DNA of 64,000 nucleotides from Rhizomicrobium electricum (GTDB lineage Bacteria > Pseudomonadota > Alphaproteobacteria > Micropepsales > Micropepsaceae). Of this stretch, positions 56,485 through 61,036 are shown one piece after another. Location of the stretch: assembly GCF_011762045.1 (NCBI RefSeq), contig NZ_JAASQS010000001.1, positions 124,001 to 188,000 on the forward strand, read 5' to 3'. Position 1 is the stretch's first letter. Each line of letters begins with the position of its first letter. The notes under the pieces are model-generated. The model was not told where the DNA came from, searched no databases, and saw only the letters and a program-made list of their open reading frames with translations. The translations under genes and the position numbers were made by a program.

Positions 56485-56808
56485 ATGTCTTCGCCGATCA
56501 AAGTTACCGATGCGTCGTTCCAGTCCGATGTGCTCAGCGCCGCCAAGCCGGTTCTGGTGGACTTCTGGGCGGAATGGTGCGGACCTTGCCGCATGATCGC
56601 GCCGGCCCTGGACGAGCTGTCGGCGGAACTCGGCGACAAAGTTACCTTCGCCAAGATCAACATCGACGAGAACCCCACCACGCCGCAGAAATACGGCGTG
56701 CGCGGCATTCCGACCATGATGATCTTCTCGCAGGGTCAAGTTGCCGCCACGAAAGTCGGCGCCCTGCCCAAGTCGAAGATCAAGGAATGGATCGAAAGCT
56801 CGATCTAG
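56485..56808 (+). CDS. trxA: Thioredoxin
   Basis: A 107-residue thioredoxin with the active site FWAEWCGPCRMIAPAL, the cis-proline in GIPTMMIF and a normal C-terminus. It reduces disulfides of enzymes such as ribonucleotide reductase and peroxiredoxins, and could serve the 1-Cys Bcp in this window. GGA eight bases upstream supports ATG 56485. It lies 30 bases after addA, a neighbourhood I recall as common in alphaproteobacteria. Confidence 0.97.
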   Translation: MSSPIKVTDASFQSDVLSAAKPVLVDFWAEWCGPCRMIAPALDELSAELGDKVTFAKINIDENPTTPQKYGVRGIPTMMIFSQGQVAATKVGALPKSKIKEWIESSI

Positions 56809-57371
56809 TCTCCGACCGACTGTGATGCGTTGGCGCGCGCGTCGACCGGTGTTTCCGGCTGGCGCGCGGCAGACGGGCTTGGCCCGAAGCGGTTCGTACC
56901 GGGCTCGCCCCGGCGCACATACAGCTCGATGAACGCCCACAGCGCGATCATGCCCAGCACCATCGTGACGATCAGCAGCCAGGCGGGAAGCGCCGGCGGT
57001 GCGCTGGTCGATCCGGTAATCATGCCGAGGCGGTAGAGCGCGAGATATTCGGCGACGTAGGGCGCGAGCCACATCAGGACCAGCCAGCCGGCGCCTTTGC
57101 CGCGATCGTGCAGGCGCTTGACGGTGATCGACAGCCCGACCCACAGCATCACCAAATCGAGCGCCGTCGCCGCGAACGCAAACAGCGGCGCGCTCGCGGC
57201 CGGCCAATACACGACGAACGAGGCGGCGCGGCCGAGCACGGTCGCGTTGTCCGCTTCCGGAAACACCACGCCCTCGGCCAGCGGCACGAACACCGAGATC
57301 AGCCCGTAGAGCCACATCCCGAGACGGCCGATGCGTCCGTGCGGACTGAACAAGAACCGGATCGCACCCAT
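56805..57371 (-). CDS. DUF805 family membrane protein (1)
   Basis: The 188-residue protein begins RFLFSPHGRIGRLGMWLYGL and has SITVKRLHDRGKGAGWLVLMW, both hallmarks of DUF805, with four membrane helices. The function of the family is unknown. AGGAGGCGGAGG precedes ATG 57371. Its 3' end overlaps the trxA stop by four bases, convergently. It is followed upstream on the same strand by a second DUF805 gene, from a likely tandem duplication. Confidence 0.86.
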   Translation of the reverse strand: MGAIRFLFSPHGRIGRLGMWLYGLISVFVPLAEGVVFPEADNATVLGRAASFVVYWPAASAPLFAFAATALDLVMLWVGLSITVKRLHDRGKGAGWLVLMWLAPYVAEYLALYRLGMITGSTSAPPALPAWLLIVTMVLGMIALWAFIELYVRRGEPGTNRFGPSPSAARQPETPVDARANASQSVGD

Positions 57372-57503
57372 ACCTCCGCCTCCTCGCGGCGCCGCGAGGA
57401 TCGCGCAAGAACAAGCCGCCAGCAATGCCGCCGGCGACTTGTCCGCAGCGAAATTCCGCGCACGGATCGCGCGAGCGATCCGCGTCTTGGTGGGCCGTTG
57501 CGC

Positions 57504-58109
57504 CTATTCGGGCTTCGGCACGCAGCCCTTTGCCGGCTTCTCCGGATCGCACCAGTTCGGCTCGAGCGGATCGGCGCCGTACTTGTTCGCGCCCTTGGTG
57601 CCCTTGAGGCAGAACAGGTCGATGAACACCCACAGCCCGATCAGGACCGACACCCAATGCGCAATCAAGCTCGGCAGGCTGCCGTGCTTCATCGCCGCCA
57701 TGCCGGCCATCATGCAGGGCGCCGCCGTGACGTAGCAGGCGTATCCCATCAGCACCAACGGCAGACCGAGATAAAGAACGAGCCACCACGCGCTGCGGCC
57801 GCGGTCGTGCAGGCGCTTGGAATAGACCGCCAGCTTCGACCACAGGTAGGCGACGTAGATCAGTCCGACGGCGATCATCGCCACCAGCGTAACTGTGCCC
57901 TTGCAGGCCGGCTTCGGGACCTTGCTCCAATCGACGACCGCTTGGCCGTGCTGCGCCTTGAGCGCGGCGATTGTCGCCGACCAATCCAGTCCAAGGCACG
58001 CGATCACGATCGCAACAATGGCCGCGATGATGGCGAAAAGCACCCAGAGCCAGATCTTGGCCCGGTTGATACGACCCGAAAACCCGAACAGGTAATGTCG
58101 TGCACTCAT
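57504..58109 (-). CDS. DUF805 family membrane protein (2)
   Basis: A 201-residue paralogue with YLFGFSGRINRAKIWLWVL and LAVYSKRLHDRGRSAWWLVLY, four to five membrane helices and a polar tail ending DPEKPAKGCVPKPE. GGGGGA lies before ATG 58109. The first half of a small upstream gene on the same strand is read in another frame into this gene (see findings). Role unknown. Confidence 0.85.
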   Translation of the reverse strand: MSARHYLFGFSGRINRAKIWLWVLFAIIAAIVAIVIACLGLDWSATIAALKAQHGQAVVDWSKVPKPACKGTVTLVAMIAVGLIYVAYLWSKLAVYSKRLHDRGRSAWWLVLYLGLPLVLMGYACYVTAAPCMMAGMAAMKHGSLPSLIAHWVSVLIGLWVFIDLFCLKGTKGANKYGADPLEPNWCDPEKPAKGCVPKPE

Positions 58110-58353
58110 GAAGTCCCCCATTGCCCACTTTGTAAGCGGTAGCATCATCCCGCTGCACGGCGACGGGAACGTGACCCCGCGACACATCCGCCAACACGTG
58201 ACGGGCGTAAGCGATCGCAAATTTCAACCGGCGGGCATGCTCCCGGCAGTCGCGCAGGAGCGCCCGGACCTCGGCGGTGTAGCGGCCGGATTTCACGGCA
58301 TTGCGGTTGCCCGGCTGACCGCCGCGCTTACGGCTGGTCTTCGGTCTCGGCAT
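58107..58353 (-). CDS. Small basic protein with RGGQPGNRNAVK motif; 3' end uncertain
   Basis: From ATG 58353, with GGAG before it, the frame reads MPRPKTSRKRGGQPGNRNAV then a GRYTAEVRALLRDCREHARR helix, a pattern I know from small hypothetical proteins and the N-termini of phage terminase-like proteins (GxPxGNxNAxKHGRYT). The convincing part is about 82 residues. There is no stop there: the frame stays open far into the DUF805 genes and beyond. The end given is where sense seems to stop, not a stop codon. Its start overlaps the upstream small gene by 26 bases. Confidence 0.5.
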
Positions 58354-58929: not shown

Positions 58930-59496
58930 ATGATCCGCGTTGTCGCCGCTGCTGCCACCCTCGCCCTCCTCACCGGAGCCGCCCTCGCCGGCACCGACAT
59001 GAATTTTCCGACCTTCACCGGCATCAACGTGCATGGCGGCGGCAGCGTCGTGCTGCGCCACGGCCCGGTACAACGCGTCACCGTCATCAAGGGCGACATG
59101 TCCAAGATCGATCTGCACATGTCCGGCAACACGCTCGACATCAGTCCGTGCAAGAAATGGCTTTCGTGCTGGGGCTCGAATCCGCTCGAAGTGGAAATCG
59201 TGTCGCCCAAGATCGAGAACTTCGAAATCCATGGCGGCGGCGAACTGAAAGCCGTCGGCGACTTTCCCAAGCAGCCGACATTGCGCGCCGATGTCCACGG
59301 CGGCGGCGATCTCGATTGCCGCGCCATCCCGGCCGATTCCGTGACCGCCAACGTTCACGGCGGCGGCGACGCTTACGTGAATGCGATCTCGAGCATCAAT
59401 GCCGAGGTCCACGGCGGCGGCGACCTGACCTACACCGGCAACCCGCCCCACATTTCCTCCCAGACCCACGGCGGCGGTTCCATCCATAAGCAGTAA
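58930..59496 (+). CDS. Exported GIN-like (DUF2807) protein with HGGG repeats (1)
   Basis: The 188-residue protein has a signal peptide (cut after ALA, residue 20), then FPTFTGINVHGGGSVVLRHG and PLEVEIVSPKIENFEIHGGG, which match the head-domain (GIN, DUF2807) beta-helix family. HGGG occurs six times, with His at 35, 101, 123, 143, 161 and 180. Family members usually carry SGSGD at these turns. Two cysteines (SPCKKWLSC) could form a disulfide. GGGAG lies before ATG 58930. The gene is followed by a close paralogue; function unknown, periplasmic or surface location likely. Confidence 0.82.
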   Translation: MIRVVAAAATLALLTGAALAGTDMNFPTFTGINVHGGGSVVLRHGPVQRVTVIKGDMSKIDLHMSGNTLDISPCKKWLSCWGSNPLEVEIVSPKIENFEIHGGGELKAVGDFPKQPTLRADVHGGGDLDCRAIPADSVTANVHGGGDAYVNAISSINAEVHGGGDLTYTGNPPHISSQTHGGGSIHKQ

Positions 59497-59590
59497 GCGG
59501 AGCGCGCAAGCGCCCGTGCGATCGTTATCAATACAAACTGATCCGGGAGCGGTGGTAAGCTCCCGGCCGCTTTTTTCGAAGGAGACGTCC

Positions 59591-60151
59591 ATGATCCGCC
59601 TTGTTGCCGCCACTGCCGCCGCCCTGCTGCTGTCCGGCGCGGCGCTCGCCGGAACCGACATGAATTTTCCGGTCTTCACCGGCGTCAGCGCCCACGGCGG
59701 CGCCAAGGTCGTGTTGCATCACGGCACGGTGCAGCGCGTGACCATCGTCAAAGGCGACGTTTCCAAAGCCTATCTGCACATGACCGGCAACACGCTCGAC
59801 ATCAGCCCGTGCAAGGACTGGTGCTGGAAAAGCCAGACGCTCGAAGTCGAAATCGTGTCGCCCAAGATCGACAACATGGATGCGCACGGCGGCGGTTCGA
59901 TCAAGGCCGTCGGCGACTTCCCCAAAGTGCCCTCGCTGAATGTGGAAGCCCACGGCGGCGGCGCCATCGACGCCCGCGCCGTCCCGGCCGATACGGTGAA
60001 CGCCAGCGCCCACGGCGGCGGCGCCATCAAGGTCAAGGCGCTTCAAACCATCAACGCCGAAGCGCACGGCGGCGGCGCCATTTCCTACGCCGGCAATCCG
60101 CCCCACGTCACGTCCCAGGTGCACGGCGGCGGCGCGATCAGCCGCGAATAA
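59591..60151 (+). CDS. Exported GIN-like (DUF2807) protein with HGGG repeats (2)
   Basis: A 186-residue paralogue of the preceding gene, from a tandem duplication (MIRLVAATAAALLLSGAALA signal, then GTDMNFPVFTG). Histidines of the HGG(G/A) turns are at 35, 99, 121, 141, 159 and 178, with the same spacing of 22, 20, 18 and 19 in the last five as in copy 1. The rung residues differ (mostly HGGGAI versus HGGGD in copy 1) while the His-Gly core is kept. GGAG precedes ATG 59591. Confidence 0.82.
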   Translation: MIRLVAATAAALLLSGAALAGTDMNFPVFTGVSAHGGAKVVLHHGTVQRVTIVKGDVSKAYLHMTGNTLDISPCKDWCWKSQTLEVEIVSPKIDNMDAHGGGSIKAVGDFPKVPSLNVEAHGGGAIDARAVPADTVNASAHGGGAIKVKALQTINAEAHGGGAISYAGNPPHVTSQVHGGGAISRE

Positions 60152-60217: not shown

Positions 60218-61036
60218 ATGAAATTCGTTCGCACACTGATTTTGATTCTCATCGGCGCGGTGACGTTCGGCCTGACGATGACGTTCGCCGGCACGATCTC
60301 CGGCCCATCGACGATCGCCATTCGTGTCGGCCTCATCATCGCGCTGGGATCGTTGTGGCTGACGGCCCGAGGCTCCGCCGCCGCCTACCGGCCGATCTTC
60401 TTCGCCTACTTCGCCATCGCCGCCGGATTGACCGTCGCGTGGTACGGCGAGGAGCCGATCACCAAGTGGCTTGCGCTCGGCTTCACGCCCTTTTCCAATG
60501 CGGCGGCGAAATGCGTGCAGGCCGCGCTGATCACGGCGACCGTCCTCATCCTGACGCTGGCGAGCGGTCAGCGCCTCGATACGCTGTATCTGAGCAAAGG
60601 CCGGCTGCTACTCGGCCTCGGACTGGGCGTGTTGGGATTCCTCGTCTTCATCGGCCTCACCTTTCTGCCGGGCGGACCGTTCTTCAAGGCGGCGAGCTTC
60701 GCCGGGCTGAAGGTGCTGGCGCCGGCCGCGATCCTGTTCGCCCTGTCGAACGCCTTCATGGAAGAGCTGTTGTTCCGCGGCCTTCTGCTCAAACGCGCCG
60801 AAGCACTGACCGGGCCATGGACGGCGCTTTTCGCCACCACGCTGGTGTTCGCGCTGGCGCATATGCAGGTCACCTACACCGCGCAGGTGTTCGGCTTCAT
60901 GGCCTTCGTGTTCGCGCTCGGCCTGATGTGGGGCCTCTTGATGCAGAAATCGAAAAGCCTCTGGGGCTCGGTCCTGTTCCATGCCGGCGCCGACGTGGCG
61001 GTGATCCTGCCGATCTATCAAGCGATGCTGCACTGA
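60218..61036 (+). CDS. CPBP family intramembrane glutamic protease
   Basis: The 272-residue protein has eight or so membrane helices. The catalytic motif EELLFRGLLLKRAE, the second motif with His in FALAHMQVTYTAQ and a third with His in VLFHAGADVAVI identify the CPBP (Rce1-like, type II CAAX) group. Substrates of bacterial members are mostly unknown. GGGGGCTGGG precedes ATG 60218. It lies 66 bases after the second HGGG gene and may share its transcript. Confidence 0.88.
   Translation: MKFVRTLILILIGAVTFGLTMTFAGTISGPSTIAIRVGLIIALGSLWLTARGSAAAYRPIFFAYFAIAAGLTVAWYGEEPITKWLALGFTPFSNAAAKCVQAALITATVLILTLASGQRLDTLYLSKGRLLLGLGLGVLGFLVFIGLTFLPGGPFFKAASFAGLKVLAPAAILFALSNAFMEELLFRGLLLKRAEALTGPWTALFATTLVFALAHMQVTYTAQVFGFMAFVFALGLMWGLLMQKSKSLWGSVLFHAGADVAVILPIYQAMLH

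Follow-up and report, generated by a model that had tools for sequence, protein, structure and literature searches.

Histidine-glycine turns in tandem, putatively exported DUF2807 proteins of Rhizomicrobium electricum: probable like-with-like stacking on a beta-helix edge

Two neighboring genes of Rhizomicrobium electricum encode tandem, putatively exported DUF2807 (GIN or "Toastrack") proteins in which a histidine stands before the glycines of a turn (HGGG or HGGA) at six equivalent positions each. Does this histidine have a function of its own, such as metal binding, or is it one of several residues that can occupy this place in the fold? Here, the pair was analyzed in the window, i.e., the whole stretch of 64,000 nucleotides from contig NZ_JAASQS010000001.1 (positions 124,001 to 188,000), and compared with its relatives.

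The gene pair and its predicted fold

GIN protein 1 (P0001; window 58930..59496, plus strand) has 188 aa, comprising a putative signal peptide and a DUF2807 beta-helix with six HGGG turns at residues 35, 101, 123, 143, 161, and 180 (codons beginning at window 59032, 59230, 59296, 59356, 59410, and 59467). Its paralogue, GIN protein 2 (P0002; window 59591..60151, plus strand), has 186 aa, with HGGA at residue 35 and HGGG at residues 99, 121, 141, 159, and 178 (codons beginning at 59693, 59885, 59951, 60011, 60065, and 60122). The two proteins are 65% identical, and the last five turns are spaced 22, 20, 18, and 19 residues apart in both. Six turns with this spacing had been described in the first-pass annotation, and both details were confirmed on the two ORFs. 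The annotation had also set HGGG apart from the normal GSG-type turn; because the genome's third DUF2807 protein carries G-S-G or G-A-G turns, this contrast is correct.

A putative Sec signal peptide without a lipobox cysteine, MIRVVAAAATLALLTGAALA, was read by eye at the N terminus of P0001 (window 58930..58989, plus strand), and the N terminus of P0002 was likewise read by eye as Sec-like. The cysteine pair C74...C80 of P0001 (region at window 59149..59169, plus strand), of which both residues were present in 38 of the 39 orthologues, probably forms a disulfide, in a loop whose length varies. Between the two genes lies a terminator-like hairpin (window 59543..59566, plus strand) with an 8-bp stem and TTTTTT within a few bases, which suggests that they may not simply form one transcript, hairpin hits in the region being no more numerous than in shuffles.

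Both proteins exceeded the PF10988 (DUF2807) gathering score of 24.2 bits, at 81.6 bits (E 7.5e-23) for P0001 and 73.8 bits (E 1.9e-20) for P0002. An AF2 model from the single sequence was poor (pLDDT 64) and was superseded by one of P0001 residues 21-188, built from an alignment of nine natural sequences (pLDDT 93, pTM 0.88). The top Foldseek matches of this model were all DUF2807 "putative adhesin" structures: 3PET was best by E-value, 4YGU reached a TM of 0.77 at 2.5 Å, and 3LYC was also matched. Among solved structures, 3PET was also the best sequence match (E 2.5e-6), and several of its turns have V after the first G. The model thus supports for P0001 the beta-helix fold of the solved DUF2807 members, taken as right-handed. 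The earlier reading of an exported beta-helix with one turn per repeat gained support from the DUF2807 match and the AF2 model, together with the signal peptide read by eye. No C-terminal translocator barrel, as in auto-transporter adhesins, was present in the 188 and 186 aa, which are putative signal peptide and helix throughout. RTX-like Ca2+ turns were ruled out, as there is no nonapeptide GGxGxD repeat.

In the secondary structure of the model, every histidine lies at the end of a strand and the glycines then form the turn. The residue directly before the histidine and the fifth residue after it are mostly hydrophobic or Ala, so the histidine probably faces outward. Since it occupies the equivalent place in each rung of the model, the histidines likely stack rung on rung, as judged, like their orientation, from the predicted secondary structure and the periodicity of the sequence. 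To this extent the stacking proposed in the first-pass annotation held; the histidine-specific function attached to it was not supported, for reasons given below.

DUF2807 is a known but little-understood family. The GIN pair resembles the Toastrack/DUF2807 proteins (PMC11237479) in its Pfam match well past the cutoff, beta-helix, glycine turns, and putative signal peptide, but it has HGGG instead of the usual GSG turns, and its members are short, stand-alone, without LiaF/PspC modules, and found in one genus only. Its best sequence and fold matches, the solved DUF2807 structures 3PET, 3JX8, 3LYC, 3LJY, 4OPW, and 4YGU, are of Bacteroides-group origin and have GVG or GSG turns, with no HGGG in the aligned sequences. 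Knock-out evidence of a role in adhesion and biofilm formation was found for one DUF2807 protein, PGN_1547 of Porphyromonas gingivalis (PMC10949514). It belongs to a distant lineage in another phylum, no histidine ladder is reported in the part of that article drawn on here, and its function cannot be transferred to the GIN pair.

Distribution of the genes and conservation of the histidine

Orthologues were found in 29 of the 69 genomes of a Rhizomicrobium-like genus (E 1e-10), yielding 39 orthologous proteins for comparison; at E 1e-8, none turned up in the order's six remaining genera. A profile search of genome contigs with a narrow alignment returned six loci, all from the same genus. When 385 genomes of the class were searched for three HGGG motifs in a spacing pattern, only the window's own genome matched with such turns; the other six pattern matches, judged from the matched stretches, were His-Gly-rich or GC-rich sequence without HGGG turns. 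The sensitivity of this search is limited: of 14 loci known to hold a His-type gene, the pattern recovers only 8, and it could therefore overlook members of the class in which such turns are rare or encoded differently.

In many genomes, the GIN gene lies between trx and folC-accD, a locus that often also holds DUF805-like genes. Two genes that we take to be DUF805-like stand beside the pair in the window (56805-58220, minus strand). As noted in the first-pass annotation, a gene for a CPBP/Rce1-like intramembrane protease (Pfam PF02517; window 60218..61036, plus strand) follows on the same strand. As a conserved neighbor it was not borne out, being absent from all 68 further genomes of the genus as well as from the syntenic loci. 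With its presence in 1 of 69 genomes, it was rejected as a partner of the GIN proteins and judged to lie outside the system; a local insertion is its best interpretation. Where this genome has the CPBP gene, its closest relative (G033) has another DUF805-like copy.

A tree was built without the turn letters. One supported clade was filled by the histidine ladder: 16 of its 17 proteins kept at least five of the six histidines or, in one truncated gene, all that survived. Most members had all six, including proteins only about 50% identical to P0001. Within the clade, the histidine columns changed 0 to 3 times against 4 for the median column (13th to 48th percentile by number of changes), which leaves scope for a histidine-specific role in this clade. 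The kept histidines of the two copies had been taken as a sign of selection. Between P0001 and P0002 alone, this is weak evidence, as copies of 65% identity would share all six with a chance of about 0.08 (0.65^6); the conservation across the clade is stronger.

Outside the clade, the histidine was not conserved. Over the whole tree, its columns changed 11 to 18 times against 11 for the median column, and the glycine columns changed 0 to 4 times. At turns 2 to 6 outside the clade, the site before the glycines held N 24, D 22, H 19, S 15, E 11, and A 8 times, R also occurred, and the glycines were almost invariant. A ladder specific to histidine would imply histidine wherever the scaffold is conserved; what was found in these orthologues is largely the pattern that the first-pass annotation had itself named as contrary to its proposal, with the histidine varying and the glycines kept. 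The histidine is thus retained within the clade and dispensable to the scaffold.

The annotation had proposed a possible metal- or anion-binding ladder. In the form considered here, stacked histidines together with flanking acids would provide sites for Zn, Cu, Ni, or protons along one edge, serving sequestration or metal-bridged adhesion. Besides the retention in the clade, this proposal is favored by His-rich ladders in two proteins outside it (G002 and G084a). In the clade, E, D, Q, or S predominates at offset -2 (offset 0 being the residue before the glycines), against A outside, and H before the glycines is associated with D/E after them (27/41 versus 21/69 cells, p 0.0004, phylogeny ignored). 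Against it, orthologues built of the same repeats freely substitute N, D, E, S, R, or A for the histidine. The trx-folC-accD locus carries His and non-His versions alike and the CPBP gene is local; comparison of the window genes across syntenic loci thus gave no His-linked partner. Moreover, the exception in the clade (G020) has exchanged five of its six histidines for Y/Y/R/R/R, with five histidines in its sister (G005); P0002 has mostly Ala, not acid, past its glycines; and the basal G066, like G002, combines histidine with Ala at -2. A metal ladder is therefore considered unlikely. The related reading that the histidine stripe and the acid/amide stripes form a selected surface that responds to transition metals or protons, and that a single genus arrived at repeatedly and in different registers, is about equally unlikely.

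Neutral common descent, in which a histidine at an exposed turn site was ancestral to the clade and was retained without function, agrees with the lack of conservation outside the clade and with the percentiles inside it, where the histidines are far less constrained than the glycines. However, the +4 site changed 4 to 9 times within the same clade at turns 1 to 5 (turn 6 is the exception, with 1 change), and separate histidine stacks occur in G002, in G084a, and at other registers. We regard neutral descent as quite improbable.

A tendency toward one letter per stack

Within a protein, a given stack tends to be filled by a single letter. Letter identity between turns 2 to 6 was measured within each of 26 thinned proteins and compared with column-shuffled nulls. 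At offset 0, the residue before the glycines, identity was 0.50 against 0.21 in shuffles (z 12.5), with further excess at offsets -2 (z 14.5) and +4 (z 7.5); as the shuffles treat the thinned proteins as independent and otherwise ignore kinship, these z-scores and the p-values given here are optimistic and overstate significance. In 13 non-His GGG-type proteins, the excess was present at -4, -2, 0, and +4 (z 3.9, 8.3, 4.2, and 5.9) and absent at -3 and -1 (z -0.1 and 0.7), an alternation that would be expected from outward versus inward side chains of a strand. Homogeneity at offset 0 in the non-His proteins was moderate (0.29 versus 0.17), and many proteins mix letters. GSG-type proteins of the same genus had an excess at -2 (z 8.6), a weaker one at 0 (z 4.7), and none at +4 (z 0.6).

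Further stacks of one letter or nearly so were D in G035, N in G084b, and H at +4 in G013. The glycines also switch as a set, among GGG, GSG, SGG, and DGG. In some proteins the histidine follows the glycines ([DEN]GGGH), which constitutes another register. Three canonical GSG-type DUF2807 proteins of the genus (L050, L053, and L055) carry HIAGSG or HVAGSG at three to four consecutive turns, with the histidine in a further register, two residues before the A of AGSG. Histidines before and after the glycines were mutually exclusive (0 of 110 cells at turns 2 to 6 of GGG-type proteins, p 0.0009, relatedness ignored). Overall, this pattern has the appearance of charge-compatible stacking along a solenoid's edge.

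The turn DNA (CAC-GGC-GGC-GGC) is almost identical between the repeats of these GC-rich genes, yet it is very unlikely that intragenic conversion or slippage of this unit spread one letter without selection for stacking, since a copied tract would not skip alternate codons, as the excess in the non-His proteins does at the inward -3 and -1, and the spacers between the turns have diverged and are unequal in length.

Like-with-like edge stacking in a genus-restricted, exported DUF2807 beta-helix, present here as tandem duplicates and with histidine as the letter of one clade, is the explanation that we consider probable. Tandem duplication gave both genes, and the products would be right-handed helices of the DUF2807/Toastrack type, periplasmic or secreted if the signal peptides have been read correctly. 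Each repeat of about 20 residues would form one rung, a strand followed by an X-G-G-G turn, in which X probably points outward and stacks on the corresponding residue of the following rung. Selection may favor like-with-like or charge-compatible stacks at outward positions on either side of the glycine corner, by which each protein would tend to one letter per stack. In the histidine clade, with an acid or amide (E, D, Q, S) usually at -2 and D/E/S/A past the glycines, the histidine stripe would run between polar stripes. Most likely it is part of an exposed edge that tunes stability, pH-dependent charge, or contact with the envelope or a surface polymer, a role preferred over a dedicated metal site. 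Because the same stack is N, D, S, or R in relatives, like-with-like stacking is a better explanation than a proven metal ladder. The proteins are best read as a known type of solenoid in a new sequence variant, with an edge that would be tunable in charge; putative metal binding is not favored.

Ladders of Asn and other residues occur in pectate lyase C and similar beta-helices, in which the Asn ladder is internal and hydrogen bonded. Like residues are stacked in both cases, but the stack of the GIN pair probably lies outward, at the glycine corner. No paper on a "histidine ladder" was among the matches listed in a literature search. The genus offers a natural solenoid family in which all residues of a probably surface-exposed stack change in concert (H, D, N, A; GSG, GGG, SGG, DGG). 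Such a natural series could be used to ask what determines like-with-like stacking and whether a histidine stack confers a response to metal or pH.

The genome G077 holds a second GIN copy (L096, 6071-6650) with HSGG or HAGA turns. In this copy, the histidine was kept and Ser took the place of the first glycine, which is opposite to the change usually seen.
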